A DNA stretch of 64,000 bases. Origin: Ceratodon purpureus (taxonomy: Eukaryota > Streptophyta > Bryopsida > Pseudoditrichales > Ditrichaceae). This document shows, piece by piece, positions 15,056 through 62,638 of this stretch. The DNA lies in contig CM026423.1 of NCBI GenBank assembly GCA_014871385.1, positions 14,924,467 to 14,988,466 on the forward strand. Reading direction: 5' to 3'. Within the stretch, counting starts at the first letter, position 1, and every line of letters starts with the position of its first letter. The notes under the pieces are model-generated. The model made no database searches. It was not told the DNA's origin and saw only the letters and a list, made by a program, of their open reading frames with translations. The translations under genes and the position numbers were made by a program.

Positions 15056-15059
15056 TGCA

Positions 15060-33100: not shown

Positions 33101-34219
33101 TTTTACTATGCATAAAAAAACCCAAATAATATATCTATTCACAAGACTGAATTTTGGAGTTTTTTTAGAAAAGTAATGCCCAAACTTTCAAAGAAATGAA
33201 TTTAGAGTTGAGATTTGGAGGAAGTAGTCTTTTAATAGACTTACAAGTATCGTTCAAAAGAATCCTAAAAAATAGTTGATTTCATGTGGTGTAGAAGTCC
33301 ACAAAAAGAGCTTCATTTAGTTGGCATTTCAAAATATGTAAAATAATGTTTTTGGAGGTTCTTTTGGTGAATGACTATCTTCATAGAGTTGTTACAAATG
33401 GACAATTTTCATTTTATGTATCGTTTTGTGCTATTTTTAAGCAATTCAAAGGTCAAAATAATTATCAACCTTTTTGGAATTTGACACTTTTCTAGTTCTC
33501 CTACTTAATTAGAGAATTCTCCTATGCTTTTCCTTTGTTGGTTATTGGCATCTTAATTCTCAAAGGTGTGTGCATTAGCCAATTTTCTCTTGGCCTAAAA
33601 CAAAATTTTAATTTCAAAGAACTCAAGGAAAAATCATGAATATTGTTAAAAATTATACCAAATGATACATGTGTTTTTTGCAATCACCGTATGATAGGAT
33701 TTTTTGAGACAACAAAGATTACCATGCTTTTGATGGAAGGCTCATCACACGCTAGTGAACTTTTCAATCAACTAAAACATTCATTTACATGGATAGAGAT
33801 TTCTACACAAATATCCAATAATATTACAAGTCAATATGAAATCATTTCCGAAGAAATCAATAAGTTCAAATTGATAATCTAATTTGTGGCCCCAAAGCTT
33901 TAGCATTAGAGAAGGAATATCAATTCAAAAAAAGTAATGGTGTTTTGGTAACCAATGACCTAATACTCAAGTTTATCCATGATTCAACACTTAAGACACA
34001 AAGATCCCTATGGCTTGACTTCATTTTTTCTAAAGAACCATCTTCACCATTTTTGATCATATGCGAATAAAGCATATTAAATATCATATACATATTTAAC
34101 CGTACATATCCGTGTTAACGTGTATATTGTGTACGGATATACACATCCAGATGATACGGTATACATTATATGGTATATCATTTTTGATCATATATAATTA
34201 TGTGATAAAGAATTACATT

Positions 34220-35422
34220 CACTACAAGAAAACCTGCCAGTGAATCAACTAAGGAACAAGAGAACTCTCTTGGAGGCAACAGCAGTGATTCGCTTTACTT
34301 GGTTCGGAGGGACGATCAACTGAACGGATTTCAGGTTTTCGTGATCAAGAGAACTGTGTTGGCTCGCGTGCTGAAGTGTGGTACCAAAGTCGACGTGGCT
34401 GGCTTCGAGAACGGGCCGGGCGCGGGTGGAACTGCGGGGTTTGTGAGTGACTCTTTTCGCATGTATGGCTGCGTGGATATGGGCGGTGTGACACAGTGTG
34501 AACCCGGCATTTCGAAGGAGGGGGTTTAGGGGATAGGGTTGGGGGAGTTGGTTTGACGTGCTCGACGTCGACCTCGGCGTCCCAGGAGCGAGTTTCGGCA
34601 GCTGCATGGCTGCTTGTGGGGAAATTGGGGTGCAGAGGTGCACTTCGCATGGGGTGAGCGTGAATGCGGTGGGTTCTGTGAGAGGAGTTAGGGCAGCTGC
34701 GAATGCGTCTTCTGAGTTTCAGAGCACCTTCACTGCGAAGGAACTGGAGCGCGTCGCTGCAAAAGAAGCGCTTCTACTTGCGGTCAGTTTGTGAAGACAC
34801 TCTTGCGTCCTCTCTGTCTAGGAACTAGTTTTTAGTCACAGCAGGAACGGCACTTGGGCATTAGCAAGCGTCCTTCTTTTTAAGGGATTGTTCTGGAGGG
34901 AAACGGAAGAATCAATCGATCCTCACTTCCCACGCAGGTCATTAGTTAGCTGTAGATTAGAACTGGGACATTGTGTCTCGAAATGAGGGAACAAGTCTTG
35001 TGTAGTTTAATGTCGGTTTGCATTCTCCCTGGCAGACGTCAAAGCTTCCACACCTGCGTCCGCAATCTGTATACACCAAACCCTAACCTCACTTAGACAA
35101 GCATTTCGAAATGCATTTCCAATTTGTAAACACCAAACCCTAACCTCACCTACACAAGCATTTCGAAATGGATACCAATCCAAAGGAGCCCCGTGCCAGG
35201 ATGCAGACGCCACGTCGATGGTCCACGTCGGACACCCACCTGTCACCCACGTCCGCACGGGGCTCCAACCTGGCCCCCTCCACTGGCACGTCCCCGCAGT
35301 CCGCAAATTGAACCAACTAAACTCTCTTCCTGATGTCCGAAACAAGTCGTCCGAGACGACAGCTTCTACCAACAGATTTCTCTCCCCCCTAAGTTGATTC
35401 ACTGGCACGTTTTCTTGTAGTG
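34220..35422. mobile_element. Non-autonomous CACTA (En/Spm-type) element
   Basis: It starts CACTACAAGAAAAC and ends with the complement (GTTTTCTTGTAGTG). The inverted repeats extend about 33 bp with one or two mismatches. It is flanked by a 3-bp target duplication ATT (34217-34219 and 35423-35425). The terminal CACTACAAGAAAA is the canonical plant CACTA end. At 1,203 bp it encodes no transposase. An internal duplicated segment (CATTTCGAAATG with AAACCCTAACCTCAC, about 35085-35168) forms subterminal repeats. The GC-rich interior may be captured host DNA. Confidence 0.95.
34558..34794 (+). other. Possible captured host-gene fragment inside the CACTA element
   Basis: The frame ends VRAAANASSEFQ, STFTAKELERVAAKEALLLA, then GTCAGT, which looks like an exon with a splice donor. 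The Ala/Val/Ser-rich start followed by a helical charged stretch resembles a plastid-targeted protein N-terminus. The parent gene is not identified. Confidence 0.35.
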
Positions 35423-37854
35423 ATTGGACAAAAAGCCCCCCTATTTTGTGTCGTATTTTTCCCTACTGAAATTTACTCACCTCCCCTAACTTACCTATCA
35501 TGGGGCATTTGATTGCAAATAATTCAAAATTTGCAAAAAACAATATTATATGCAAAAAAATAAAAAATTCTTGTGATTTTACAAGAGTAAATCCACCGTG
35601 CGGGGTCCTCTTTGTGAGATGGATTTAGCGTCATGCATCCTGAATGAACACTAGAATTTGCCTCGTTAGATATTATTCTAATTTTTCACTGCTTTGTAAG
35701 TAAAATGAGTTAAATACCTTTTATCACTTAGAGTACATTAAAAAATACTTTGAATAGTTACATGAAAATTCAATATTATATATTGAACAAAGAAAATAAA
35801 CCACTTCAAAAGCACACTAAGAGACCAAAAAAAAAAGTTAGTTAAACCGGTATTGGTAAATCAAGATGTTTTTGAAAAGGTTAATTTTCTATGTCTAATG
35901 TTTAAATTTGATTTTTCTTATATCTATTTGGCCAATGCGCTTTTCTATAATAAAAATTTGAATTTCTAATCACAGGGCAGTGGAAGAATTGAGTTAAAAT
36001 TGGTAGGGCAAATTTTGAAGAATATTGAGGATGACCTTAACTATAAAGTGTAATGGATGCACTGATGCACTCTTCAAAAAGCTATTATTGGTTGCTGATC
36101 CAAGGTAGGAGGAGGCTTTGTATTCATTTGATAAAATCATTTATTAGATGATTGCAATTTTAAAGAAGCTAAACACTTTAACTATTTTTTTAATTTTAAA
36201 AAAACAAATCAATAGAACTAAAATCTAATTTGAACACTTAGTCCTTTCGGGGTTAAAACTTTGTAACTCAAAAAGCAAGACAATCTTATAGGACAAAGCC
36301 TCTTATAGCATAGCCCAAGGGAGATGCTCCTTGTAGGTATTGTCCAACTTCATGAAGCTTAATGTATAGTGTCATTATTTATATGAGGCATGTATGAATT
36401 GTATAGGTTTTCTAAAAAATACGATGTCTCAATTATGGAAAAAATTGATATGACATTTTACTATATAATTAAACATGAGCTCAAATTTTACAAAAAAGTC
36501 ATTGAATTCTAAACCCAAAAATGTTCCAAGCATACAAAACTTTCTTTCTAAGAGATCAATGTTTTTGCGAAATTACAAATATACAATTCTTAATCAATTT
36601 TAAAAGAAATTTTCAATTTTTATTGTCAACTTCATAAAAAATATTGGTTAAAATAGCAGATTGTCTAATTATATGGGTTGAATCTATACATCACATTCTT
36701 AAAGAGTGATGTTGGTTTGATTTGTACAAGGATTTGTAGAATCTATTTTGGATTTTGAGTTTTTTCACTTTGCGAGACATAAGCAAATTGTAGCAAGTGA
36801 AGTTGAGTTTCTAACCCTAAATCAAGCTGTGATTTTTAAATTTTTTTAATGCAAATCTCAAGTGTAATAAAAAAAAAAACTCAAGTTAAGGCAATTATTG
36901 CAAAAGTTTGGAAATCCCTTATATTAATGGAATGGAATTTGGATTAATGTGATACAATTATTGTCAAATATTTGGATAAAAGCTACATGCAACTAAATAG
37001 CAATGGATGAAAGCAAGTAGAAATGTAATGAAATTTATAAAAATTAAACGAAGGTAGCTCAAAGTGAATGAAATTTGTATGAAAATCACACCATAAAATA
37101 TTTGAGATAGTATAAAAATAGAATGAGCGAGAGTGATTACATGGATTGTACAATTCTACCTAAATTGTCATATTTCTATATCCTGCAGCATCTACAATGC
37201 ATTCTCATAAAACAATCCATGTATCAATTAATAGAAGGGCATTCCACAAGGCGTGCATAGTGACGAGATTTTTCGAGAAAAGATTGACCCATTGCAAAGT
37301 GGTCACTCCAAACTTCAAGTGAACTTTTCAACATTATAAAAAGAAGAAAAGAAAAATATTTTACCTTAAAAGGAGGCTTTCCATGGAAACAAAAAAGGCC
37401 AATTTTATTAGCATCCATACTAATGCTTGAAAAGGTATCATGACAATAATGACTATTCCTCTCGCTATTCCTATAACAAGCCAACTTGCAAGCCCTTCAT
37501 ATTTTGCAAATTTGATTAATATGAGCAAGATGATGACGTCATGACGGGCCTGGGAATAACATGAGAGCTATGTTAATTGCATTGGAGAGTGTTTTTGGTG
37601 TTGCCTCTTTAGGATGTTGAAATTGTCTTGGAAGGTGATTGCATTGTTGATGCTCTTACAATTTTGTCAAATTCTAAGATCAGTGTGAGAGCTCCAATGC
37701 AACAGAATTACATTATTTTAACATATAAGATTTTATATGTTAAAAACATGTACATTCATAGTTTATCATATAAATGTTAAATAGATGTGAATAATCAACT
37801 TAACACGGACTTGAGGTGCAAAAAATACATCCATGGCTGAACCTCCTATTAAAA

Positions 37855-38305
37855 TGCTTCTCAGTCACTCCAAACTTCTTGGATTGATATGAAATTTTAG
37901 CCATACAAATTAGACCGGTATGCACAACTCTTACAACAAAAATTATTGGAAACAGACAGTGTATGAAGAAGATATAAGCCTCCGAAGTTCACTATAATCC
38001 AAAAATCTTTAGATTTTGAACTTTGAATTGCTCCCAAAAATTCAAAACAACTTGGATTGACATGATACTTTTACCTCAATAACTAGAATTCAACGGTAAC
38101 ACAAACCTCCAAAGTTGCAGCCATCAAATGCAGTTTGGTGAACTCAAATTGAACTTGTGAACTTTGATTGGCCAAAACATCTGTACATCTTGGATTGACC
38201 TGAAAAATTTACCACAAAAACTAGAAGAAAGAGCGCAAATTTTCCAACAAGTTTAATTGAATTCGGACATCGGATGCAAAAGTTACAGCACTTTGAATTG
38301 AGATT
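37855..38305. repeat. Right arm of a large inverted repeat
   Basis: It is the reverse-complement counterpart of 29690-30180. Confidence 0.8.
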
Positions 38306-45226: not shown

Positions 45227-46302
45227 TCAATCGCACGGCTTGTTACCTTGGGTGGACATCACATGACTACCGGACAACTATTATGAGACAAGGTGGTACG
45301 TCACATGTTCAGTGAAATGACCGGATGTCTGATGATGAAAGTTGCAAGGAATAGCAATGAGAGCATATATCCTGGGGTTGCCTGATGTGTCCGCGTGTAA
45401 CAATTAGTTGGCGACATCATGTTGGAGAATAGTTCAGTAGTCCTGCTACTATACGTATGTGAAATCAGATTGGAGTCTTCTGAATTTTTTTTTATCTACA
45501 TGGCATAGAATCCAATAGCAAAATGCGAGGGATATCTCTGCCAATGCATGGATTATACCATCGTGTGGTTTTGTGAGACTTAGTTAAATGTAATCAATGA
45601 GTTTTTAAAATTAAGAGCTAGATCTTGGAGCATGTGTTTGAAACCATATCCACTTTGAAATAATATCCATTAGCAACCTGAGTGTTGTGAATGATTAAGA
45701 GATCGACGGCACATTTCGGAGAGTCTTGCAATAAGCGAAGTAGCATATTTATCACCAAATGTGGCTTGGAAATAGTAACCAAAATTTTCCAGCTTACAAG
45801 CAGTACTGAACCATCAAGCATTAAGATTTGAAAGTTCACTGTTGTATATTGACGGTCAAGCGGGAGATTCGGAAGGTCTCGAGGATTTAGAACGACGTCG
45901 TCGTGGATCATTACGAGAGCTGAAACGCTGATTACCACAATCTCATGACATGATACATCTTCGCTACTTCGTCCAGAGGGCGCGCTAGCTAGCTCCCCCA
46001 CCTTTGCCATGCCTCTAGTGACCCCCAGAAGCCTAACACTCAAGCAAACAATCAAAAGTACTCACCCAGAAAGTATTTTCAAGGACTTAAAAACGAACAT
46101 GCCTGTCCTAGTGTGCACAATCGATCCCAAATTCATGATTCCATGTCAAACATGGCAACCATTGAAGCACCGGCAGCTGGGTCCGATCTGAATGTGAGAG
46201 TGAAGTGTAAGCAACCCTAATTGGCAGAGAGAGAGAGAGATCAGCAGACTAAGATCAAAATCACGAGACAAAGTACCGGACAGTGAATCGCAAATCCCAG
46301 GC
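45227..46302. other. Intergenic DNA between the DUF266 and H15 genes
   Basis: A 145-codon open frame on the minus strand (45618-46055) has no recognisable domain and is not called. A GAGAGAGAGAGAGA run at about 46227-46242 lies just upstream of the next gene, probably in its 5' untranslated region. Confidence 0.45.
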
Positions 46303-46950
46303 ATGAAACGGAAAGCGCAACGACGATACCTGCCGCAACGTCCCCGACGCAGGCCCACGGCAACGAGGCCATCGAGAGCCACCATCCGAAAGAAACCCAC
46401 GAAGGGAAGGGCACACGGAGGTCCATCGTCTCGTCCTCCAGCAGCGCCGAAGCCGACGTACTTCTCGTTGCTGAAAGACGTGGAGAACTACCTCAAGGTG
46501 GACCACGTAGAGGGCGCGACCATGCAGAAGCTGAAGCGGGAGATGGAGAAGCGGTACGGGGGGGCGGCCTTCGACGACGCCAGCTGCAAGATGCTTAAGT
46601 CCGCCGTGAAGCGGTTGCAGAACAAGGGGCGCATCAAGAAGAACCCGAACTCGACTCTGTTGAAGTACAAGCCTCCCGTTGTGCCGGCCTACAATGTCTT
46701 CGGCGCCGGCCGGTCGAAGGGGGTGAGAGTTGTGCCGCTGAAGCCTCCGGTGTTAAGGAGGCCGGCAACGCGAGCGCCACCCCATCGGAAACATCATGTG
46801 ATGATTCGGAAGCCGATGGCGAAGGCGCCGCCGATGAGGAAGCACTTGATGACCAGAGCTCCGTCGATCCGGAAGCATGCGTCGGCGAGTGCCAAGCGAT
46901 CGACGAGGTCGCTGCCGAGCTACAGGCCCCCCATTCGGAAAAGACGGTAA
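46303..46950 (+). CDS. H15-domain linker histone H1-like / protamine-like protein
   Basis: Single-exon, 215 aa. The N-terminus is very arginine-rich (RRYLPQRPRRRPTATRP). Residues about 49-120 form an H15 winged-helix globular domain (FSLLKDVENYLKVDHVEGAT, then LKREMEKRYGG, MLKSAVKRLQNKGRI). The C-terminal tail is Arg/His/Pro/Met-rich with repeated RKH units (APPMRKHLMTRAPSIRKH) and ends PPIRKRR. Somatic plant H1 has a lysine/alanine-rich tail; the Arg-rich composition here is closer to sperm H1 or protamine-like proteins, which in liverworts arise by cleavage of germline H1 precursors. The male-germline role is inferred. A related gene lies at 61898 beyond element C. Confidence 0.8.
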   Translation: MKRKAQRRYLPQRPRRRPTATRPSRATIRKKPTKGRAHGGPSSRPPAAPKPTYFSLLKDVENYLKVDHVEGATMQKLKREMEKRYGGAAFDDASCKMLKSAVKRLQNKGRIKKNPNSTLLKYKPPVVPAYNVFGAGRSKGVRVVPLKPPVLRRPATRAPPHRKHHVMIRKPMAKAPPMRKHLMTRAPSIRKHASASAKRSTRSLPSYRPPIRKRR

Positions 46951-47644: not shown

Positions 47645-47655
47645 CTTAGTCCAGC
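47645..47655. repeat. Left target-site duplication of element C
   Basis: CTTAGTCCAGC is repeated at 61190-61200. The terminal bases allow an 8-11 bp reading of the duplication because the outermost GC/GCAG could belong to either the repeat or the element. Confidence 0.88.
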
Positions 47656-47722
47656 AGGAATGCTATCTTGTGAGCGGTGAGCGGTGAGCAGTGAGCGGTG
47701 AGCACTAAATTTTCAATTTTTT
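47656..47722. repeat. Left terminal inverted repeat of element C
   Basis: It consists of a CTATCTTG block, then four GTGAGCGGTGAGCGGTGAGC-like tandem units, then CACTAAATTTTCAATTTTTT. It matches the complement of 61122-61189 almost perfectly apart from the outermost bases (AGGAAT against CAGCGAC). Confidence 0.95.
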
Positions 47723-47773
47723 GACTATTTATTTGATATTTTGAGATGATTTTGAATGACATGGCATATAGAG

Positions 47774-47790
47774 GACCTATGACCGTGGAA
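47774..47790. promoter_or_regulatory. Subterminal motif, left end of element C
   Basis: GACCTATGACCGTGGAA is a variant of the complement of CCACGGTTATAGGG, about 120 bases inside the end and in the same relative orientation as in element B. Confidence 0.45.
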
Positions 47791-48340
47791 AGTGTTTTAG
47801 GGTATATTCCACAAAGAGTGGCTTCTAAATTGATAAATGTAGAAATTCACACCTGATTCATATGAGTATAAATTCGGATTTTTTTTTCATATATCATATG
47901 AATTCCACGCCAAGAAGATCAAGAGGAAAAAAAAAGAAAACAAAAAGAAAAAAAAAATAAACATGGATAAAGAAAAAAGATTAAAAATAAATAATTAAAA
48001 GGATTATCGGAAAAACGAATTTAAGAAATGAAGGAAAATAAGAACAAAAGAAAGAAAAATAAATAAAACAACAGAAGAAGAAAAACATCAAATAAATGAA
48101 ATAAATATAAACAAAATTAAAGATAAAACATAAAAAGGAATTAACAACAAAAGATTAAAAAAAATGAATAAATACATATAGGAGAGAAAAAAGAGATTAA
48201 AAAAATTCAAACAAAAAAAGGTGAAGAAAGGATATACAGAAGTATTCATCCATGTGTTGGATGACTGATTTGAAGGTGCGAAATTAATTAATTGAGAGTT
48301 AGTAATCCTTAAAACCGACTTGGGATTTCTGTTCGTAGGG

Positions 48341-48454
48341 GACCCCAAGTAATTACTAGGGGTGCCCACGTACCCCACGTAATTACTAGGGGTGCCCAAG
48401 TACCCCAAGTAAATACTAGGGGTGCCAAAGTACCCCAAGTAATTACTAGGGGTG
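48341..48454. repeat. 30-bp tandem repeat, three full copies and a part
   Basis: Units at 48361, 48391 and 48421 share TACCCCAAGTAATTACTAGG and GGTGCCCA. It lies downstream of the methyltransferase gene. The regular open frame across it on the minus strand is a product of the 30-bp period. Confidence 0.93.
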
Positions 48455-48740
48455 TTTGCATAATAGGGAAGGGAAAAATACATGAGAAACTTTTTAAGGA
48501 AATAACATTTTATTGTGATGCCTCAAGCTGTAACCAAGGAAAGTTCAAATTCTAAAAAAAATAGTACCATCTTTATGATTCAATCATGTATGAAGTCAAT
48601 TTAAAACATATGGCCTGTAGAGAAATTCACACAGAAGTAGAGTAAAGTGAGGTTAAAGCAATATATAAAATCCAAAGCCAAAGCTATCATATAATATATA
48701 AGTAGGGAAAACATAACAATATAGAGTAAATATGCAATGA

Positions 48741-51700
48741 TCAAGTAGACATCTCATCATCGCTACGAGTACCAATCCAACCATCATAAGAATCGCTATC
48801 ACTATCACTAGATAATACCACTCTGGCAACTTCTGCAGCTATGTCAAGATAAATCTCAGCATCACGACAAATACTATCTCTGTCAGATGAAATAGATGGA
48901 GAAGGAGCAGCTAAATAAGCTTGAGCCTGCATCTCTGCATAATGTGGAAGCTCTAAAGGTCTAACTGGACTCCGTATCTTGCTAAGATGGCGCGAGATAA
49001 TAGAGCCACCAATGTCATTCTTCAACGCTTTCTTCCGACTGCACATGACAATTTCACACTTTAATAAATACTGAACTAAATTTTTTTTTAAAAAAACAAA
49101 TGAAAAATGAATGTGTAGACTTACTTACAGGAACGCTTGGGGGCAGTCTTCCTCTCAGGCTCATCGTCTGACTCCACCGATCGTTTCTTCCTCGGTGAAG
49201 GCACAGGAATTGGAGTAGACTCAACCTCCTCCGTGCTTGGAAGAAGAGGAAACAACACTTGATTGTACAAGGTGGTGTCAGACTCAAAGCCTATGACATG
49301 ACGCCGGAGACTCTTGGATGCTCGAATGGAGGCACCTGCACAGAAAGTAGAGCTCGAAAACATAAGTAAAACTTATAAAATGAAAAACACAATACTTTTA
49401 AACAAAAAAAAAAAACAAATTAATACCTGTAGAAGCTGTGAGATCCATGACAATGTCATTCTCAACCGTGCACAAATCAATTAGAGCCTGCAAGAGGTTA
49501 GAAGTCTTCTCCCGTGCTCCTCTGAATGGCTCACCAGTCTCTGAATTAAATGTGAGAGAATCTGCAGTAATCAAATTAGTGCAATGTCCATCAGAGGAGA
49601 GCTTGATGCCTAGGGCACCAAGCTCAGCCCTATCATGAAACTGGAACTTAGACCTTGGAACTTCCTCATCCACATTCTCCATCTTGATGAAGCACTTGAC
49701 CATGAAAGTCTTGTGCTGGCGTGGATAACGGTCTGGAATAGTCAATGGCAGGCCATTGATTGCAAACCACTTGGCCTCTTCCTGGAAGTTAGCCCACTCT
49801 GCCCAGGAAATAAGCTCATTCGAAATGAACTTTGAATCAGGATAAAAAACAATCAAAGCTCCATCATCCTGCAGAAACTGAGAAGCAAACTCAAAATGGG
49901 CCTTAATCCATGAAGACTCCATTTTTTTCCCTGCTGGAATCTTGGGGTGCTTGTTCCAGGAGGGAATCTCACCATCTTGCCCTAAACCTGGAACTGGTAA
50001 ATCCTCTGGAACATCAAAAATGATGAGGTCCACAGCAGCCTCAGCCTCCTCACCTCCAAAATTCCTAGCCTTGCTGCCGAGATTCCCCTTGATCCAATGC
50101 TTGATCTTGCTCCAAATCTCAGGCTCATCCCCCTCCGATAAAGAAGTAAACAAATCCAAAATGCCCATAGGGCAATCATTGATGATCTCAACACTAGTGT
50201 CTACCTCATCCAACTGCGAGCATGGAATGGTGTAGATAGTCTGAGAAGGCATGGGGGTAGAAAAAAGAGGCACCTGAGGAGCTACAGGAACTATGGCAGT
50301 CTGCATGCTACTGCCTGAAGGAGAAATGCCAACATGAGACATCAACTTCTCTGGCCCTTCCTTGAAAACTAACTTGGCCAATTCTCTGTTCCTTGCTGCC
50401 ACTTCCTTCTTGAGCTTAGCTTCCTGCTCCTTCTCCTTCTTCTTGTCTTCCTTCTCCTTCAACTTTGCCTCTGTCTTTGCCTTCTTCTCAGCCACCTTCT
50501 TCTTCTGTCTCTCAGACAGAGCAGCATCATCACCAACCTGCGAGGTATCCTCCTCCACACCCACCATGTTCTCATCCCCAAGCTGCTTCATCAAGTTCTC
50601 ACAACTTGCCTTAAGACCTCTCTCTTCCCCCGGGCATTGATCATTCTCCTTGAGCTCAAGGTACCAAGGACACTGAAGGAGATGAGGAGCTCCAAAATGC
50701 CTCCTCTGGTAATCTGTAAAAATGCACTCACTGCTAGAGACATCCACCCACTTCTTAAACCGCTGAGGAATATCCTTCCTGTCAATGGCACCCTTTACAA
50801 CCAATTCCCTCCAGAAATACCTCAATATAGCCCGCTTCATAGCATTCTCAGCACCAGCCTGATGGAGAAATGGCTCTTTCTTGGTATAAGTTCCAGCCTT
50901 GGGAAAAAAAGACTTAAAGGCCTTGCCCCACAAAGTAATGGAATGAGCCTCAATCCATGAGCCAATATCATCTACAGGATTAGGTAAATCCTCTGTCCTC
51001 AAAACTATGATATCCTCCTCTACAATCTTGGCATAACGAATGACTGCCTCCTCCTCTAACTGCAAGAATGATCCAATACAAGAGACATATGAATACAAGA
51101 CATTTTTATGGTTGATACAATATATGACATTGAGGAAAGCAACAACTGTAAAACAAATTCATAAAGCTTAACTTATTGAAACATACCCCGGCCCAGAAAG
51201 CAGCTTGATCCACCCAAGGCCTGAGAGCTAAATCTGATGCTGGGTGTGGAGGGAAATTGTACTCCTGCCGACTCTCCTTGCTCATATTCCACCACCTCAA
51301 CCACCTCTCCTTATGCTTGGCACTCACCTTAGCAGAGGCAATGAGCTGCAACTTCTCTGGAGTCATCTCTGGATCTGCATAGAAAATGTCAAAGTGGCGA
51401 ATAATCTGCACAACAAGATTTCATAAATAATTAAGTCAAATAAGTGGATAAGAAAAATATTCAAACCTAAACAACTACAGTTTTAAGAAAATTGACTTAT
51501 TCATTCATATAGAGATTCAACGAATTTACTGAATAGAAAAACAAATGCAAGTCATCCACTGTCAGCTTCAAGCAGGCAGTACACAGTACCGCCAGTCACC
51601 TCTAGGCACTGCAACAGGTGAGCAAAGCACGAGACATAATGCTGAGACAACAACCCAACATGCAATCGACAAACTCATAAGGTAACAAGGTCAATGGAGC

Positions 51701-54700
51701 GAAGCTCAGAGCAACCGGCAGTGAGCAGTAAGCAGGCAGTAAGCAGTAAGCTCAAAGCCTTGCTGACCTCGAGCATAAGGCGCTTGCTCGATTTAAATGC
51801 CTCCATGTCCACTGCCTGCAGCAACGAGGCCCTGAGCAGGCAGCTTGCAACTCCTCTGAGCACGCACACCGAAAGCACAAAAGAGAATTCGAAAAAACAA
51901 TTCCAACAAAGCTCCAGCATTTGCTGGGGCACATGTAGCAAGAAAAGTGAAACCATCAGGCAGTGCCGGGGCACCCCTCGGATCCGAGAGGTGGTCCAGG
52001 GGTGTCCCCGGAAGTCACTTTTTCTCAGAAAATGCATAAACTTTGAAAGCCTCGGTGCGAGGCATCAAAAAATAAATTTAAAAATGAGAATCAAAAAGAG
52101 AATCCTCGGAGATCCTCCTCTCGGATCCGAGACCAGCATATTCCAAAACATTCCATGATCATTCGCAAACCAGGAGCATCCGGCTCGGTGACACACAAAG
52201 CTGATTGTAAACAAACTCTGAAAGTGCCCCACTCAAAGCTCAAAGCCTTGCTGACCTCGAGCATAAGGCGCTTGCTCGATTTAAATGCCTCCATGTCCAC
52301 TGCCTGCAGCAACGAGGCCCTGAGCAGGCAGCTTGCAACTCCTCTGAGCACGCACACCGAAAGCACAAAAGAGAATTCGAAAAAGCAATTCCAACAAAGC
52401 TCCAGCATTTGCTGGGGCACATGTAGCAAGAAAAGTGAAACCATCAGGCAGTGCCGGGGCACCCCTCGGATCCGAGAGGTGGTCCAGGGGTGTCCCCGGA
52501 AGTCACTTTTTCTCAGAAAATGCATAAACTTTGAAAGCCTCGGTGCGAGGCATCAAAAAATAAATTTGAGAATTGAATAAGAAAACAGCAAATAAAAATA
52601 AGTTATTTAAAATGCAGTCAACAAATGCCCCGGCCAAAGCTCAGGGCCAAAGCATAGAGCGCTTGCGAGCATAGAGCACTTGCATCAAGGAGGCCATGCT
52701 CAGCTCGAGCATAGAGCTGAAGCAGCATGAGATCACGGCTCTTTGTCACACAGAATTCGATTTTAATAAACAAATGCGAGTCATCCACTGCATGCTTGAA
52801 TCAAGGCAGCAATCACACTCGGCAGTAGCCGAATCAAGGTAGCAGCTGATATCACACCAAGCCAGAAACAAGGTACATACTGAGCCAAGCTCGTGGCACG
52901 AGGCTTACACAGAAACTTAACAAGCAGAACATAAATTAAAAATTCACCAAGCTCCATCACTTGCTGGAGCACCGATTCAGAAAAAAGTGATTGCAGTGGC
53001 CTCAACCGAGGCAGCCCTCGGATCCGAGAGGTGGTCCATGGGTGTCCCGGGAAGTCACTTTTTTGCAAAACTTATCATAAAATCTGAGCCTCATCGAGAG
53101 GCATGTACATTTAAAAAAACAAAAGCATCAAACAGTGACATACCTCTTTCAAAAAGCCTTCTCCATTGCTCGGGTTCGCTATAGCAATAAATCGATCCAA
53201 CTGCGTGTTTAGTGAAGTCTTCTTCTTATCTACTGCCTTAGCTGCGATCGCCTTTAGTTCAGATGCACTTCCTGGTCTTTCCTCTCCAGTGCCTGTAATG
53301 AGTGTGTCTCTATAGCCTCGAATAGCCTCCTCCTGGGCCGCTGAAATCTCTCTCTTCAATAACAAAAATGACATGTCAGCTTTTTAAAACTGGAGAGCTC
53401 TTAAACAAAATCACTGTTGTATACTAAGAGTAGCTTACCTCGTATAAGAAGTTGATAAATGCATCATTTGTGAGGTGAAACCATTTTCTATTTTTTGTCC
53501 GTGCCCTCTCCAATATGCTGGCTTGTAAATCCTCCTCTTTCACAAGACCCTTGAGTTGGTCAAAATCCAGCAAACCAAGTTGTTGGACGCGCTTCACCTC
53601 GTGTATCCAATGCTGTTCAACGTGGTCCACTTGATTTTTTCTGCAAAAATTGTGCATATGATAACATCAAGTCACAGCAATTTAATTTAAATATCGAAGT
53701 TAACATACATCTTCCTGAACAAATATATGATTTGTTAGAGGTCATAGCAAATAAATCAAAATGGAAAAACAAAAGATATCTCAGATGCAGTGATTGTGCC
53801 TTATTTTTCGAGCTCAATGTTTTTATAAATAAGCTAACAAATAACAGTCGCCATTGAGCTCAAAAGAGAACATGGCACAAACTGAATAAGCAATCAATGC
53901 CCATACTGCAGGCAGCTCCGGACAAGGACCAACAGCTTGTCACAGTAGCCTTCGGTCCGGGTTCACGCTAGAATTCCTGATTTAATTAAAACAGAACCAT
54001 TCACATACAATTAGAATGCCTAGAAAAAACATGAAAACGAGAACTTACTTATTCCAGTCGGTCATGGCGTGCAAAAGCATATTGCAGTTTGCAGGTGTGA
54101 CATTGATAATAACCGATCGAACTGAGACATGAAATGACGAATCATGCTTCCGAATGGTGTTAATAATCTCTGACCAAGCAATGTGGCGATGGTTTCCATC
54201 CCACACGTAGAAGTACTTGTTGGAGTACTTCTGGAAAGCTGGATTTGCTGACAATCTTCTCTCAAATTCTTCATCCTCCTTCTGCCATGTCTCAGACCAG
54301 GATGCTCTGTCTTCTTCAGAAACACTACACTCTTCCATCTTGAAACTCCTGAGAGAAAGATAGAAGCATGCTGACGCCCTCTTGTATCCACGTGAGAACT
54401 CGGCCTTCAGCTTTTGAATGTCGTTCTTCAAAGGCTCCCTGACGTCCTTCATTGGAATCATCCGACATAGGGGAACATCAATCTCCACACCGGGCATGTC
54501 CAGCGCGCTTTGTAAAGCGATATGTGACGTGCCTATCACTGCTCTGCGCAGTTGGTCCTCAACCTCGGCCAAGCCACCATCCTCGCGATCCATGGCTGAA
54601 GATGGACTGTTTACCTCTTGCACAGGTGCTCCAGAGCTCAGGCCCTGGCAAAGTAATTATCAAACATTTCAGTTTCCATTAGGACGAAATGCTTTCCATC

Positions 54701-56291
54701 AAAGGATCGATTTCTACGAAGCTTAGCTAATATTACTTCATTACCACAAACCAGAATGAAACCTTCACTAAATTCTGCATCTACCCAGATAATTTCTATT
54801 GCAGAACAGTAAGGTCTAGGATAATGTATCAACATGAGACATTACCGCAATCAGTCTATCTTCTAACTGCACCAGACTCAGCTAGAATGCATCAAACCGA
54901 ACTCCATTTAGAAATTGCACACAGAAAGAAAAGGGTATGTTAAATTTAAAAAACAAGGTTCAGCAAGCGTACCTCAAAGACCTGGTCCTCAGACGACCCT
55001 GCCCCTCGAACGCGGTCCATGACTCTGGAAATCTGCAGCCAATTTTGTGATTTGGGGGACCCGTATTAATTGACTTATACAGCATGACGAAATTAACGAA
55101 CATGTGTGATGCGTTCACAGCTCTCGTTCTGTTTGCATATCTAGGATGATGACCGAAATTTCCACACGAACGGGAATGAGAGACTGCTGCATTGCCTTCT
55201 TGGCAGCATAAATCGCAATCGTTCGTTCCCTCTAGCACTCTGAGCTTTAAGCACTTTGAGCCATAATCACTCTAAGCCATAAGCTCGATGAAGCCAAGAA
55301 TTACAGCTGAACATCATGCTAGCTATACAAACAGTAGATGCTAGAATGGCTAAGCTCAGACTGTATTGACCGTACCACGGAAGTTCTGACGCAGGGACGA
55401 CTTACCTCTGCAGCTTGAATGCAATCAGTCGCAAAGCTCTCCAAGGGCGCAAATTCTGAAATCAAATTCCTTGCTCCCAATACTTCGAGATCGTGACCCA
55501 CTTCCAGTCTCTCAGACCCTAATTTCTGCACAAACATTTTAGGTTTTAGATACCTGATTCCTTTCAGAATGCGCATTGAAATCAAAGGTGCGGTTCAGCC
55601 CAAACAGTCTGCAGCAAAAAGAGAGCCAAGCAATAATAATGACAAGAGATCGAAGGTACCGAATCTGCAGAGCTTTCAGAAATTGAAGTCGTCACAGGTT
55701 CACTCGGATTGCTGGTGCCGAAGACGAGCTCTGAGAGTTCCCCGGCTTCAAGTGCATCGCCTCCTCCCTCTCCCGACGGTAACCCGACCTGCAAACCCCA
55801 GATAGGAAGTCACGGAAAAGTCAACCCGGTCATAGGGAGAATCTCGACACTCATGAAGTCCGTCCATTCAATAATTAACAATCACCTAGATTGTATGATC
55901 GCGTAATTAATTTTTTGTGAAAGCAGTGTGCAGTGCTCCTCAATGTCCATGACAAGTAGATTAAATAAACTAAGCCGCGGCTGAATCCATTTAGGAAATA
56001 AATAATAAATTTCAACGTACTTACAATTAGTCAATTACACAATGCAAAGTGCATGGTATGGTATACCTGACATATACTGGCCAATGCTTTGATTTTGAGA
56101 TGCTTGGGATCATCTGAACTATAATCCACCTCTGCAATACGAGCGAGATCGACTTTCTCCTTCCGTCTCTTCTGGGCCGCCACCTGCTTCGGATTACTAA
56201 ACCCTGAACCTCGCCTTCTCCCTCTACCTCTAGTTGTACAAGTTCTAGGAGCCCTCGGCACTCTTGGGCTTGGCTCTTCCTCTTCCCTCAT
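48741..56291 (-). CDS. ParB-like domain / amino-methyltransferase-like protein of element C
   Basis: Eleven exons (56291-56067, 55788-55660, 55525-55406, 55032-54973, 54644-54049, 53640-53439, 53353-53144, 51405-51187, 51059-49427, 49335-49125, 49038-48741) join in frame to 1,300 aa with GT-AG introns throughout. In order: a basic N-terminus with RGRGRRRG; a ParB-like domain (about 225-375) with YVWDGNHRHIAW at about 324-335, the GNHR being the ParB/Srx-type signature; a conserved region with CPWYLELK and CP (possible zinc site); a Lys/Glu coiled coil (about 768-820); a methyltransferase-like domain with motif IV as IIFDVPEDLP (about 933-942), then motifs X and I (REKTSNLLQALIDL, DIVMDLTASTG) and an acidic residue (GFESD). 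This IV-then-I order is that of beta-class N6-A/N4-C methyltransferases and MT-A70 proteins. DVPE replaces the usual DPPY/W, so catalysis is uncertain. The tail holds VVLSSDSDSD, a SUMO-interaction-like motif. Expected to act in the nucleus on DNA. Confidence 0.85.
51690..53050. repeat. Intron with CGGATCCG palindromes and a 330-bp direct duplication
   Basis: Cores are at 51979, 52122, 52467 and 53019. A segment of about 330 bp (51749-52080) is repeated at 52237-52568 (offset 488) with almost no differences. This lies in the 1.7-kb intron between exons 53353-53144 and 51405-51187, the same intron that holds the 96-bp array in element A, yet the repeat units are unrelated except for the core. 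Confidence 0.92.
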
Positions 56292-56989
56292 AGGTCTCAG
56301 TAACGCTCTCCCGTAAACATAATTCTAACTAAGACGTATGCTTTGAAATCGACAACTGCTCAGTACCAGTTTTATAGTGGACTCTTAGTACCCTAAACCC
56401 TTCAGACCTATAATACATGCATGAACAATCTGTGATTGCTAATGTTTGTGTCAGTATGTTTGTTATATATAATAGTAATATATATTTAAATTGTTAGGTG
56501 CAGACCATATTAGAATGGCCATCAAATCTATGTAAAGGGAATGACATGATCTTATGTCGAAATTAGTGAACACCAAGTACCAGGTCTATTATGATATCTC
56601 TCCTTAATATATCTCTCTGGAACTCTGCCTCCAAACAAAATAACTGTTTAAATTAAAGTTGCCCTGATCACGCTCACATTGACGGCTAATTGTTATAAAT
56701 GTATAGGTGCACATCTGTGACGGTTCAATTTCACTGCTGATTGATATAATAGTATTAGCTAAACATGATGCGGTTGGCGGTCTCAGCCGCCTAAGCATTT
56801 CAGTTTGTCAGATACATTCGAACTTAAATTAAGCTATACAGGTCATGGTGGATTCGCCAGTACATTCTATTTCATTTTAGAGTAGGTTAGTTGTCCCACC
56901 ACACTAACCACTAACAACTATATGATCTCTACAACCTCGAACAGGCCAAGCACATCTTCTTACACTCTGCTTGCACAAGCTCTCCTCCG
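56292..56989. promoter_or_regulatory. Divergent promoter region of element C
   Basis: This 698-bp AT-rich interval separates the two element genes, which are transcribed away from each other. No open frame or palindrome core is present. Confidence 0.6.
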
Positions 56990-59900
56990 ATGCATGATTG
57001 TACTTCTTCTATCTTCTATAGTACACTTAGAATGGCCTCTCTACGGTCTCATGATGGAGGTATTCCTTTTGTAATGTCTGTAGGTCCAGACAATAAGGTA
57101 GTTGTGGAGGAGCGATTACTTAGCCTCAGGTTTGGGTTTAGAGCTGGGACTATTTACGTGGAAGAAGAGATCTTTGATGATAATGGTGAGATTCTTGAGT
57201 GTGTATTTCAAGTGAAGGATAGTACACCCGATGGTTACGTCTGGACTCTGAGCACTGGAACTTTCAAGGTTTATGGGTTATCACATGCACAGATGTCTGA
57301 GTCTACTGTTCTTCTGACCCCTCCCCCCTCTACGTCAACAGTTCAAGTTCCTGGTCTAGCATCTGTCAAAATTGAACCCAGTGACAACTCAGTACATTTA
57401 TTGAGTGACTCGGATGATGACACTCACAGTGAGATCAAGCTAGGAGACACTAGATCGAATCCATTTCAGAGTCGTGGATCCCAAGACTCAGGTCGTCCAT
57501 CTCGACAGGGTAGTCGTTCTAGTATGTCTGCGTCATTGTCTACAGGGCGTCCACCTATTCACCTTGTTTCAAAAAAAAACAGGAGCATTATGTTTTCTAT
57601 CAGAATGACAGCATCAAGAAGGGGCTCCCGATCAGAATTATCGAAGATTGATTTTGACACTATTGAACATGAACAAGTGAAGTACTTACCGCCAGTTTAC
57701 GATGGAGACAAGATTTTCGAGCTGCCCCCTGTACCAGAAGGAGCTCCAAATCCATTCGGAGGTGGAATGGACGGTATGAGCAAGCAGTATGATGGCCACA
57801 CCTGGTGCAAGACCATGACCACAAACATCAAGAACGAGTATGGCCTCACATATCGTAAGTCATCCTGTACCGGACACTTACAATGTCCCAACATGAGTTG
57901 TGATTACATCTGCAGGAATAATGGGATGGTAAATAGCACTGAATGGTCAGGCGTAGCTTTGGTACCTTTCTGTGTGGGAGGCTCCCCCACAGAGAAATCT
58001 ACTTTAGCATGCAAAGTATGTCAGACACCTCCTACTTGTCTGGCATTGTGCGAGGCTAGGATCTATCATGTGTCGTCTTCAGATAATGATATGACCCGTG
58101 CGGCGATTCATTTAGGACGTCATAGACATCCTGTATCTCAAGGCAGATGTCAAGATTCTATGGATATCATGTTTGACTGCATAGCTAAGGAGGTTCAGAG
58201 GACACCTAATGCCAAAAACTCTGCTATCGTTCTAGCGGCCAGCAAGCAGTACCTTGCCGATGCTCTGATCCGTCCTACTGCAGGAGGCAGTCATCTGCGG
58301 GGAGCATCTATGGATGCTGTAATTGACCAATTTGAGACTCTTTCTTCACCGAATATACGCAATTTTGTTTCTGGATCAAAGAGGTTTTTCCGTCAAGGGA
58401 GAGGAGTCACAGATAGCATCTTGGAGCTGAAGGATTACTCCAACTTCGATTTCATCCACCGTAATCAATTCCCTGGACAGAATGAAGGCAAGGTGTTTCT
58501 GTTCAAGATGTCCACTGATCGTCCAGGAAGCGGTGTGGATCTGGTGAAGCGCATGCAGGCTGGAGGTGATCTTCAAGACTGCTGGATCATGTTCGACCAT
58601 GTTAGGCGTGTAGCTGACTGGACCACTATGGCATGCCACGTTTACGACAATAAGTATTGTAAAGTTATGACAACTGCCCTTTGTGACATGCAATCCGAAG
58701 ATGCTGCTGCTCAAGAGTTATTTTGGCGGCAGCTCAATGAAGTTATGCGCAAGAACGGCCTTGAGAATACAAATTTCAAAGGATTCATGGCTGACAATGC
58801 TGGAGCGAACTGGCACGCTGTTCGGAAGGTGTATGGGAACGGAGACCCCAATGATCCTATGGAAGAACGTGAACGCACTTGTCTTTTCCACTGGACAAAG
58901 TGCCTTCAGAGGGCTACTTCCCGGAATATCTTGCCAAGCTTTCAAGAGCAACACAAAGCTTTGTGCAAAGTATGGAAGGACGCAAAGACCCAGGAGGAAG
59001 CAGAAGCGCAGTACAACGTCATCCGTGGGTGGTGGCTTTCATCAGGCGCTACAACTGAAGAAGGAAGGCGTCATCTAAATGATTGGATGGTTTTCTGGCA
59101 CTACCGGTATAGACAATGGGGAGGCTCGATGCAGCTTGTAAGTTCATTCATCCCTAAACCTTCCATCAAGTAGTAGTACGGCCTTGCTTTTATCTATAAT
59201 CCTGTGAATGACATTATTTATTTTATTGTATTTCCCAGGATCTTACCCTTGACGAGAGAGCCGACATGCCTTCCTGCAACCTTGCGGAAACCGTGCATAA
59301 CAGATGGCTTCAACAATCAGGAAACACAATGACCTGTTTGTACGAGGCAACAGTGGATGATATGATCCGCGCATTCATGCAGATCACAAGTTATCGGTCT
59401 TGGCTGAAGGGAGGAAAGGGCGGTAAAGGTCCGGACAGAGCGGAACTTCGTTTACGCCACGCTCAACGCTCTGGTGACCCCAAGTTGATTGCTGAGGCAG
59501 TTAATTCCTACCCGGGAGCCGAGGATTTACTGACGAAGAAAGGAGGCTTGGAAGGTGCAGAGATTTTTGGATCTACGAAACGGAAGTTAGATTTGCCACC
59601 TGGTTCTAGTCATGACTCGCATCGCTATGATACCGTGAATTATTCCATTCCTCGAGATGGCACGAGATCCACTAGAGCACGCATTGAGGAGGCCCTTTCT
59701 CAACCTGACTCGGGTGTTGAACACACTACTTCAGTGCAGGAGACAGATTGCGACCCGTCTAAGTGGCACATTGCCAGACTGTCCGGTAAGTCTAACCGAA
59801 AATGCCAAGCAATGCAGGCTCATACAAATGAGAAGTGCGATACCCGAGTGCGTCGAGGTACACATGGTACGCCTGCTCCTACCTATGTAGGGCTAAAGAA

Positions 59901-60609
59901 GGAGTTCAGAACCGATCGCCATATCTCTACTGACTTCTGGTTTTGCGCCGATGACATCAATAGATGTGTGAAGGGCACGAAGAAGTCGTTTGTGATCGAT
60001 TGGCCATCTATCCCGCAGACTTGGCCTGTGAAAAGGGGCACGAACTTGACCATCAAAGAGATTTTGGCTCTTGAAGAGGCCGGCTTCCAACTCCAACAAC
60101 GTGGAGTACTATCACCTCGTCGTCAGTTCCAGGTCTCTGCTAATATGCCGCTCCCAAGGAGTCATTTCCCGGTTCCTGTTGATCCGGATACACACCCGAC
60201 GACTCGAAACGGATATGCCATCAGGAGAAGTTCTGACGCTCCTACCTCCGACCACCGCAACAAGTGGAGCAGCGCGAGTCTCATGAACAACTATTGGATT
60301 ACAAATGTCACATCGATTCCATACCCAGGATTTGGCTGCGTCATCTCCTTGAAGAGTCCAAGTGAAACGATATATTGTATCACCATCACGGACTTCCCTG
60401 GATGTACTTGCCCTGACTTCATGAAAATGACTTCGGAAACCCTTGGCAAAAGAGGACAGTGGAAGTACTGCAAGCATGTTTATTATATCTTCCGCTATCT
60501 ATGTGAGATGGATTACAAGGTTGATACTTTTATGCACGCCCCTAGCTTCAGCTTCAACGAAGTTATGCGTGTTCTGGAGATGGCTAAAGTTGCTGAACCG
60601 CTTCAGTAG
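56990..60609 (+). CDS. MULE-like transposase with SWIM zinc finger, element C
   Basis: Two exons (56990-59137 and 59239-60609; GTAAGT ... CCCAG) give 1,172 aa. Order of features: an element-specific N-terminal region shared with A (SLRFGFRAGTIYVEEEIFDD); a VKIE sumoylation-type site at 126-129 and a VHLLSDSDDD SUMO-interaction-type motif at 135-144; a Cys/His cluster (C293, C299, C304, C341, C344, then HRH at 378-380) resembling WRKY/GCM or FLYWCH-type DNA-binding fingers; a MULE-type DDE core (MFDHVRR with D536, ALCDMQSED, FMADNAGANW with D602, CLFHWTKCL); and a SWIM finger near the C-terminus (C1105, C1107, C1127, H1129). The third acidic catalytic residue was not assigned. The start is the ATG of MHDC, conserved in copy A. 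It should bind the element ends and catalyse cut-and-paste movement. Confidence 0.9.
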
Positions 60610-60785
60610 TTTCTTATGGTTAGACTGTGAAATCAAGTGACCAATACAGTACAAGAGTACATTATATGAATAGCGGAATTGATTTGTTTTGGATTTGTGA
60701 TGGATTTGGAATCCGCAGAACATAAATAAAGGTCACTATTTATGTATATATTGTCCACCTCTCGAATGTCGTTGCCGTAAAATGA

Positions 60786-60885
60786 ATACAAGAGAAGAAT
60801 CTTTCCAAAGCATGAAGGAATATTCTCCTCTCGGATCCGAGAGGAGAATATTCCTTCATGCCTTGGAAAGATTCTTCTCTTGTAT
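60786..60885. repeat. 100-bp near-perfect palindrome centred on CGGATCCG
   Basis: Each arm is 50 bp with a single mismatch and no spacer. The centre is 60835/60836. It lies about 180 bases after the transposase stop and about 300 bases from the right end of element C. Its transcript would form a long hairpin. Confidence 0.97.
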
Positions 60886-60996
60886 CCGCGACCACAAAAA
60901 TGCAATAAAAAAAAAAAAATTAAAAATTGGATATACATTCTGTATGTGTCTTGAACAGTAAGCTTTCCTATCCAACCATTCACATTTGATTGATTC

Positions 60997-61011
60997 CACG
61001 GTTATAGGGTC
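60997..61011. promoter_or_regulatory. Subterminal motif, right end of element C
   Basis: CCACGGTTATAGGGT is the same as the right-end motif of element B and a version is seen in element A (CCACGGTGATAGG, about 25440). Confidence 0.55.
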
Positions 61012-61121
61012 TACTTTATTTGCATTCATATATTCCAACGAATTGTCCTAAATTGCTCACCATTGTTTGATTGCTCTCAAAAAAATTCAAAAAAAAAAAA
61101 AAAAAATTCAAATTTTTTTCT

Positions 61122-61189
61122 AAAAAATTGAAAATTTAGTGCTCACCGCTCACTGCTCACCGCTCACCGCTCACAAGATAGCGTCGCTG
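61122..61189. repeat. Right terminal inverted repeat of element C
   Basis: It mirrors 47656-47722. It contains tandem GCTCACCGCTCACTGCTCAC units followed by CAAGATAGC. Confidence 0.95.
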
Positions 61190-61200
61190 CTTAGTCCAGC
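61190..61200. repeat. Right target-site duplication of element C
   Basis: CTTAGTCCAGC matches 47645-47655. Host sequence resumes after it. Confidence 0.88.
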
Positions 61201-61897
61201 CGTCTGCGTTGTATCATGATCATTCACTCGAAATCAACTTCAGTTACCGTGAACTCGATACTGAGTATGCAAATGAGTACCGCAACCTTAGATTCGGAAG
61301 CTTCGTATTCCGTGAGACGATCGAGTCTCCAGCTATTAAATCGGTTCAAAAGTTGGCAATCACAGAAAATCATCCCCTTATACGTGTTCATCATATAGGA
61401 AACGGGATTAAGCAGCTGCCTTTAAGCACATGATTACATCGACCTCATGTCTCTCATTGCAAGCACACCTGGAGGCCATGCATATTGTCTTTCATCAGTT
61501 CAATCCTAATACAGGCTAATGAATACACATGCACACGAGAAGTGGAAACGGTGACATTTAACTCAAGCCATCTGGAACCTCGTGCGAGAGAGGAGCCCCT
61601 GAACTATTGCGATCATCTAGAAATCCAAACGTTTAAAGCTCTTCAATATGAGTCAGAGGAATTTGAGATATGAGAAGCCAGAATGTGAAGAGGCGCACAT
61701 TCGAAGACTCGAAGCGACTAGGTTAGTTTTCTTCCCAAGCTCTTGTGTCGAAACTGCATTGGGAGATGTTGTGAAACAGCTCTAGATCACTACGAATGCG
61801 CCACAATGTCGATAAAAATTTCAGAACTCTTAAAGGAATGCAGAGCGTGATCCCAAATTAGTCAGAAAGACGTTCTTAAACCGCGCGCTCTGAGAAG
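61201..61897. other. Intergenic DNA, right flank of element C
   Basis: No gene is supported. Together with 46951-47644 it makes an original spacer of about 1.4 kb between the two H15 genes before element C inserted. Confidence 0.5.
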
Positions 61898-62638
61898 ATG
61901 AAGACTCGGAGGCGACCAGCGCCGCGGTACAGAAGTCGAAGGGCGCCACTGCGAGCCCGACAGAAAACACCCACGCGGCGGAGGAAGAGGAATAAGGCAC
62001 CAGTGATTCCCCTCACCTCGCGAGGCAAACCGCCCAGCTACTTCGAGCTCCTGCAAGAGGCGGTTCTCACCCTGAAGGAAGCGCGCGCGGGCGCCAGTTT
62101 GCCAGAGATCCGCCGTCAGCTGCAGAACAAGTACAAGGGGCGGTTCGACAAGGCGGGCGACAAGCTGCTCACCACCGCGCTCCAACGACTAGCGGAGCGC
62201 GGCAAGGTGATCTGGAAGAAGGGCTACCGGTACAAGTTTAACGCGCCTAAGGTGTCCAAGGCCAAGCCCAAGCCCAAGCCCAAGTCCACGGATGGGTCGG
62301 CGACGTCAGCGTCGGCGTCGGCGTCGTCGTACTCTGGCACCAGCCGGTCTGGCGCCACGAGCAGGTCCGCTCCGTCGGACGCCACCGACGCCACCACGGA
62401 GAATGATTCGCGTACTAATTCAGAGTCGTCTTCTGCGACGTCAGGAACTAATCGCTCTGGGAAGTCGTCTGCCAAAGATGGGGAAGCGCCGAATGACGGA
62501 GAAGCTCCGAAGGATGAGTTGCCGGGGGGTAATGTTGATGGTCATGAAGTGAAGAGTAGCAGTGGCAACGATTTCTCCAGCTCTGCAGCGTCTCCTTCCT
62601 CCACCGCCTCTCGCCCCGCTTCCTCCAAAAAACGCTGA
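61898..62638 (+). CDS. H15-domain linker histone H1-like protein with Arg-rich N-terminus
   Basis: Single-exon, 246 aa. The first 35 residues are strongly arginine-rich (MKTRRRPAPRYRSRRAPLRA), like a protamine. Residues about 45-112 form the H15 globular domain (SYFELLQEAVLTLKEARAGA, EIRRQLQNKYKG, LLTTALQRLAERGKVIWKKG). The tail starts with a KPKPKPKS stretch and is then Ser/Thr/Ala-rich and acidic rather than the usual Lys-rich H1 tail. An Arg-rich head joined to an H1 domain and a removable-looking acidic tail suits a sperm protamine precursor, but that is inference. It lies in the same orientation as the H15 gene at 46303, so the two are likely tandem paralogues. Confidence 0.8.
   Translation: MKTRRRPAPRYRSRRAPLRARQKTPTRRRKRNKAPVIPLTSRGKPPSYFELLQEAVLTLKEARAGASLPEIRRQLQNKYKGRFDKAGDKLLTTALQRLAERGKVIWKKGYRYKFNAPKVSKAKPKPKPKSTDGSATSASASASSYSGTSRSGATSRSAPSDATDATTENDSRTNSESSSATSGTNRSGKSSAKDGEAPNDGEAPKDELPGGNVDGHEVKSSSGNDFSSSAASPSSTASRPASSKKR

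Follow-up and report, generated by a model that had tools for sequence, protein, structure and literature searches.

A two-gene Mutator-like transposon of Ceratodon purpureus with a ParB/DNA-methylase-like accessory protein, lineage-specific palindromes and a possible self-recognition system

How one transposon evades silencing while the rest stay silenced is an open question, and the one worked-out sequence-specific answer known to us is VANC. The question is raised again by a 64,000-nucleotide stretch of Ceratodon purpureus contig CM026423.1 (the window), in which three related DNA transposons, elements A, B and C, were analyzed. They carry an accessory gene beside the transposase gene, and the 10-bp palindrome TCGGATCCGA recurs in non-coding parts of A and C. 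This palindrome is associated with the element lineage and with the accessory gene. We give about even odds to a self-recognition, probably anti-silencing, system in which the accessory protein would read the palindromes of its own element and would work like VANC, an unrelated protein.

Element C and its relatives in the window

Element C occupies positions 47655-61189 (13,535 bp). By its sequence it is an autonomous DNA transposon of the Mutator-like kind; its two genes are divergent and both free of internal stops. Its features are as follows.

47645-47654 and 61190-61199, no strand: 10-bp target duplication, CTTAGTCCAG, copies exactly identical
47655-47722, plus strand: left terminal inverted repeat, starting with CAGGAATGCTATCTTG and containing tandem GTGAGCG heptamers (repeat search and end alignment)
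61122-61189, minus strand: right terminal inverted repeat (repeat search and end alignment)
57032-60609, plus strand: transposase gene, 1158 aa, exons 57032-59137 and 59239-60609 (stop included), with CLFHW in the core and a C-terminal, SWIM-like CxC...CxH
48741-56291, minus strand: accessory gene, 1300 aa in 11 exons and one open frame, all 10 introns GT-AG

The left end (CAGGAATGCTATCTTGTGAGCGG...) and the right end, read as reverse complement (CAGCGACGCTATCTTGTGAGCGG...), are the same at 65 of the first 68 positions, counted on the alignment, and terminal inverted repeats of 90 nt with 87% identity were obtained by repeat finding. A first-pass annotation, made by a model from the sequence alone, had ascribed to this element clean ends, a duplicated target site and two intact genes in divergent orientation, and these findings bear it out. 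Near the left end, at 48342-48454, 30-bp tandem repeats are located, two of which bear the palindrome AGTAATTACT.

The annotation had further called the element MULE-like (Mutator-like element), an assignment that rests on structure and residue patterns and found no backing in the Pfam models. A target duplication of 9-11 bp is expected for MULEs, and an exact 10-bp duplication is present in both B and C; the long terminal inverted repeats of C have their counterpart in the ends of B, which could be aligned too. For transposase residues 200-745, 103 homologous protein clusters were found, which are 40-85% identical (E up to 0.01, 4333 candidates); a precomputed Pfam domain is assigned to none of the 103. 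Fourteen of them were aligned with the proteins of elements C and A (alignment A4, 16 members). D561, D627, C656 and H659 are invariant in this alignment, and the third acidic residue lies outside its invariant columns. Together with CxC...CxH at the C terminus, seen by reading in C and A, we take these residues to be Mutator-type DDE and SWIM-like patterns. On alignment A4, no Pfam Mutator, MULE or SWIM model reached its cut-off; the best match, PF00872 (Mutator family), remained below it with E=0.034 in one of the 16 members, and the SWIM-like C terminus of the element C transposase had no Pfam match. The assignment to the Mutator-like elements is therefore based on the 10-bp duplication, the long terminal repeats, the invariant residues and the SWIM-like CxC...CxH. 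Scans of viral contigs gave no relative of the transposase or of the accessory protein, and plasmid records gave no transposase relative.

The left part of element A lies beyond the window edge. The element ends at 25619 with a terminal sequence nearly that of element C, and its transposase gene is split by element B.

9380-21455, no strand: element B, nested in the transposase gene of element A, with its own target duplication
9370-9379 and 21456-21465, no strand: target duplication of element B, 10 bp, GACTTTGTCG, exact

The accessory gene of element A contains a frame change in exon 9 and a stop in exon 10. In element B, counterparts of accessory exons 5, 7 and 8 were detected by tblastn, which gave no methylase part; the transposase of B is represented by tblastn pieces from its last two fifths, not in one open frame. 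Relative to element C, pieces of the accessory gene are 34-57% identical in A and 34-38% in B, and pieces of the transposase are 51-70% and 41-47% identical, respectively. Thus, the recurrence of the gene pair noted in the first pass stands, both genes being present in all three elements, with the correction that A, like the decayed B, is not intact; only C is. Element A had been considered as a second complete copy and was dropped, being cut by the window edge and having an interrupted transposase gene and a disrupted accessory gene. A one-off capture of a host gene as the origin of the accessory gene was likewise considered and dropped.

It is highly improbable that the linkage of the two genes is accidental, as between host genes or genes of separate elements. 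Such an accident would accord with the unequal numbers of homologues (103 transposase clusters versus 22 accessory clusters, though the queries differ), but the divergent pair is found in three of three window elements, and both terminal repeats enclose it in B and C, the two elements whose ends are both within view.

Composition of the accessory protein

The accessory gene had been estimated at about 1,300 codons in the first pass, and the model of 11 exons with GT-AG introns throughout agrees with this. The exons and the segments of interest are the following.

56291-56067, 55788-55660, 55525-55406, 55032-54973, 54644-54049 and 53640-53439, minus strand: accessory exons 1-6
53353-53144, 51405-51187, 51059-49427, 49335-49125 and 49038-48741, minus strand: accessory exons 7-11
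54049-54644, minus strand: exon 5, ParB-like segment with the box VWDGNHRHIAW (profile comparison with viral ParB proteins, box unmasked and masked)
49427-51059, minus strand: exon 9, with a conserved N-terminal part, a charged (coiled-coil-like) stretch and the methylase-like domain with motif IV, FDVPEDLP, and the start of motif I
49125-49335, minus strand: exon 10, with the rest of motif I, HVIGFESD and the end of the methylase-like domain

With exon 9 (frame residues 262-586) as the query, 22 homologous protein clusters were found at E up to 1. For 20 clusters E was below 1e-40, and at least one cluster (P0118) hardly differs from the piece in element A itself. The whole 1300-aa protein as the query gave no homologue among 7999 scored candidates, the length window having probably excluded single-exon predictions. 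The Pfam model PF01555 (N6_N4_Mtase) scored 15.8 bits on the exon-9 frame alone and 36.6 bits (E=6.1e-9) on spliced exons 9 and 10, above its gathering cut-off of 26.7, whereby the matched stretch starts after motif IV. This gain supports the intron between the two exons. Among 24 separate accessory rows, which are single-exon pieces, PF01555 matched eight at E up to 1. In a profile comparison, the methylase-like domain was colinear with 11 phage or viral methylases (score 52, the highest of 60 column shuffles being 21).

The catalytic motif IV of such enzymes, [DNS]PP[YFW] or DPPY, occurs in none of the 23 rows, out of 24, that cover the site. All 23 have D[VIM]PE instead (DVPE in 16, DIPE in six and DMPE in one). 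Because of this replacement, the accessory protein is probably no ordinary methylase. An active DNA methylase, labelling the palindromes (centres GATC and TTAA) of its own element with N6-methyladenine or N4-methylcytosine, would nevertheless be compatible with several observations. Activity was predicted for a comparable protein of an Ectocarpus transposon (PMC12477816). The PF01555 score of the spliced domain is above cut-off, for a stretch following motif IV; motif I, on the side of S-adenosylmethionine (SAM), is mostly D[LI]TA[SG]TG, and palindromes with A:T centres would suit these enzymes. The aromatic residue of motif IV stacks on the target base in this methylase class, and it is missing from every covering row together with one proline, for which reason we consider an active enzyme unlikely.

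The exon-5 segment holds the box WDGNHRxxAW as in ParB-like proteins. An earlier, unmasked comparison with ParB was partly circular, since the targets had been picked by their DGNHR box; hence, it was repeated with the box masked. Exon 5 then scored 22.4 against viral ParB segments over 28 columns, and none of 100 shuffles exceeded 16.8; the score is weak but above every shuffle. The target set comprised ten segments chosen by eye: L003, L007, L008, L009, L010 and L014 from 14 pattern loci, L015 (contig of pattern locus L011), L016 and L017 (found with L011) and L025 (phage search with L011). The remaining seven of the 14 pattern loci were dropped, as they looked like other proteins or wrong frames.

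The accessory protein thus appears to derive from ParB/DNA-methylase fusions like those of prokaryotic viruses, a derivation shown by sequence for the methylase part and supported for the ParB part. Fusions of ParB_N and N6_N4_Mtase encoded in L017 and L025, and a similar one in L015, have the same domain order as the accessory protein, with motif IV before motif I. They differ in that the DPP of motif IV is invariant in their alignment, in their length (417 aa in L025, at least 502 in L017 and at least 532 in L015) and in being found on contigs of prokaryotic viruses. The proposal that a ParB-like and a beta-class methyltransferase-like domain are joined in this protein therefore survives in a modified form, with a methylase fold devoid of DPPY and a ParB-like segment below the reach of the Pfam model. 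A check of both proteins against Pfam and PDB, as the annotation had suggested, yielded PF01555 for the accessory protein, no hit for ParB_N, and the Mutator models below cut-off; PDB sequence searches gave no credible match, and PHROGs and NCBIfam nothing credible.

Close homologues of the accessory protein are encoded on two contigs (L026 and L027) binned with a desert-crust cyanobacterium (AVDCRST_MAG81). L026 aligns with element C in blocks (32-64% identity per block), which break at the same residues as the accessory exons of C. These contigs are probably stray eukaryotic DNA contaminating the cyanobacterial bin, because intron-like stretches part the matching blocks at these residues, and they likely come from a species other than that of the window. 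Between L026 and L027, non-synonymous (dN) and synonymous (dS) substitution values for exon 9 are 0.030 and 0.309 (ratio 0.10, 548 codons).

Palindromes in the non-coding parts of the elements

The palindrome TCGGATCCGA occurs 29 times in the window, 24 times in element A and five times in element C; it is absent from element B and from the 24.8 kb outside the elements. The first-pass annotation of element C makes no mention of it. Order-2 models gave an expectation of 0.003-0.01 per region. None of the 29 sites falls into an identified exon, though coding sequence makes up about half of A and C (in A, the accessory gene was modelled from exon 5 onwards, with approximate exon limits). The sites are distributed as follows.

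51978-51987, no strand: accessory intron 7 of element C, within a stretch duplicated at 52236
52121-52130, no strand: accessory intron 7 of element C
52466-52475, no strand: accessory intron 7 of element C, duplicate of the 51978 site
53018-53027, no strand: accessory intron 7 of element C
60786-60885, no strand: near-perfect hairpin (49 of 50 arm positions) centred on TCGGATCCGA (60831), 3' of the element C transposase
2805-8853, no strand: 20 sites in element A, three in intron 8, 11 in intron 7 (96-bp array), five upstream of exon 5 (four in a 149-bp array) and one between the genes
25072-25241, no strand: four sites in element A, downstream of the transposase
15085-16722, no strand: ten copies of GCCGTTAACGGC in element B, in arrays of about 127 and 182 bp upstream of the exon-5 homologue

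The element B palindrome, GCCGTTAACGGC, was found nowhere else in the window, and both palindromes are of the form CG-N4-CG. At 15033-16839, the 127- and 182-bp arrays of B contain inverted repeats centred on GCCGTTAACGGC, with arms of up to 61 bp. The accessory remnant of B holds a second dense motif, GTC[ACT]A[AT]TTGA, with 19 strand hits at 12496-13966 and none elsewhere in the window.

A further array was found in L026, a metagenomic contig from a separate source, retrieved by its methylase-like exon only and after TCGGATCCGA had been noted in the window. It carries three copies of TCGGATCCGA (starts 26, 132 and 348; expected 0.002) in tandem repeats of about 107 bp, which precede exon 5, whose match starts at 648. 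Elements A and B hold arrays at the corresponding place upstream of exon 5.

For an unbiased view, k-mers were ranked by their number of distinct contexts; A-runs were left out and both flanks were counted. An earlier version, in which one similar flank sufficed to call a duplicate, had placed GAGGATTTAC above CGGATCCGAG in element C and was replaced. Among 10-mers, TCGGATCCGA ranks first in A (nine contexts) and CGGATCCGAG, an extension of it, first in C (four contexts).

Passive palindromes would have no dedicated binder; they might be tandem satellites or fold-back repeats that owe their spread to slippage and gene conversion, or else hairpins for small RNAs. Many copies do lie in tandem arrays, and some palindromes centre longer hairpins, with arms of up to 50 for TCGGATCCGA and, as given above, 61 for the element B palindrome (median arm of 5 for 98 other 10-bp palindromes in the window). 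However, the 10-bp core is common to A, C and L026 while the flanks differ, and the nine distinct contexts were counted in A alone. We regard a passive origin as improbable.

Alternatively, the palindromes could be binding or regulatory sites of the transposase, the accessory protein having some other role. Mutator transposases bind terminal and subterminal repeats, and some copies of TCGGATCCGA lie 3' of the transposases in both A and C. However, the terminal repeats bear another motif, the GTGAGCG heptamers, as the expected transposase site; 23 of the 29 copies of TCGGATCCGA are located in accessory introns or just upstream of accessory exon 5, and the L026 array adjoins the accessory gene. 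This explanation is judged improbable, to about the same degree as an active methylase.

Self-recognition as the favoured reading

If the accessory protein reads the palindromes, it would bind, probably as a dimer, to TCGGATCCGA in the introns and at the 3' non-coding end of its own lineage, the motif having been amplified into tandem repeats in A and L026. Since all covering rows have D[VIM]PE in place of DPPY, the methylase fold would most likely read sequence, perhaps with SAM binding retained, and not act as an N6-adenine/N4-cytosine (N6A/N4C) methylase. By analogy to VANC, the bound protein would mark the element as self and oppose silencing by the host, so that the element might stay expressed without other transposons being opened. 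Protein and palindrome would co-evolve, and the diverged lineage of B would accordingly have a different palindrome.

The accessory protein is proposed as the reader because placement of the motif, its tandem growth and its divergence between lineages match the anatomy of VANC systems. VANC proteins are encoded by Mutator-like VANDAL elements of Arabidopsis and cause loss of DNA methylation; the short motif bound by VANC21 lies in intronic, intergenic and terminal non-coding sequence of VANC21's own family, and VANC motifs form tandem repeats, those of VANC6 being different (PMC5735166). Shared with the present elements are the Mutator-like host, an accessory protein beside the transposase, an element-specific non-coding motif which is tandemly amplified and differs between lineages, and an accessory protein less conserved than the transposase (between A and C, the 34-57% versus 51-70% given above) (PMC5735166). 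In contrast, VANC contains DUF1985, which had no match in accessory exons 5-10, the parts scanned; the VANC21 motif is no palindrome, and demethylation was demonstrated for VANC, to which the present system is likened from sequence (PMC5735166).

Several observations weigh against the self-recognition reading. ParB_N (PF02195) gave no hit in exon 5 of C, A or L026, nor in a spliced part of C of 409 aa. The palindromes could be bound by the transposase instead, and the second dense motif of element B illustrates that a motif need not mean one binder. Element C has only five TCGGATCCGA sites, two of which are copies in one duplicated stretch. In the ranking for C, the palindrome motif is outside the eight k-mers listed at k=8 and below AGTAATTAC at k=9; in B, the GTTAACGGCA k-mer ranks below k-mers of the terminal repeat and of GTCTAATTGA, and a simple repeat outside the elements reaches a P value similar to that of the C motif. 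What carries the case is that one motif is common to A, C and L026. The L026 array is a single event and one repeat out of its four has lost the TCGGATCCGA core, and L027 lacks TCGGATCCGA in its 3.1 kb, which start at exon 6. In a control of 164,294 bases from phage and viral loci, TCGGATCCGA was found once; it is rare, yet present in unrelated DNA.

To our knowledge, maize mudrB and yeast mutB contain no ParB/methylase part. These genes, the latter from Mutyl, are second genes of Mutator elements (PMC6446971), a likeness by description to the accessory gene. Closer in protein type is Sola1-1_Ec32 of Ectocarpus, a transposon of 21.5 kb with a 1104-aa protein that joins a ParB-like part to an N4C/N6A-methylase and is encoded on the strand opposite the transposase (PMC12477816). 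Such proteins were suggested there to bind and modify their own transposon, and green and red algal cases are mentioned (PMC12477816). The likeness consists in a ParB-like and methylase accessory protein opposite the transposase of a large DNA transposon; it is one of description, not sequence, and Sola1-1_Ec32 differs in belonging to the Sola1 superfamily and to a brown alga, with no motif arrays described in the relevant part of that report (PMC12477816). The class of ParB/methylase accessory proteins is therefore already in print for Sola1 and algal transposons and is not new. In the open-access literature, no report was found of a Mutator-like host, an altered catalytic motif or cognate palindromes for such a protein; the first-pass annotation, which knew of no such gene in this superfamily, agrees with these searches as to the host element, and the protein class itself was already described.

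More generally, and with somewhat less confidence than for the locus itself, eukaryotic DNA transposons may carry a catalytically altered reader derived from ParB/methylase fusions, together with co-evolving, parS-like palindromes (CG-N4-CG) protecting them from silencing. This would be a second, independent invention of the VANC function and would explain the ParB/methylase genes in giant algal transposons by giving them a purpose. If true, a second anti-silencing system, made from a bacterial-type ParB/methylase fusion, would make the question of escape from silencing testable in another lineage, with predicted binding sites in hand. The conserved D[VIM]PE is, moreover, an example of selection maintaining a methylase fold that lacks the customary catalytic motif.

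Rfam and tRNA scans of the window gave no matches. Outside the three elements, two linker-histone-like reading frames flank element C, at 46204-46950 and 61880-62638; the latter alone reaches the Pfam model Linker_histone (E 2e-9), the former having been recognized by eye only. The partly AT-rich region 29742-38254 has inverted repeats of 269 and 83 nt (81-83%) at its borders and is perhaps a further transposon.

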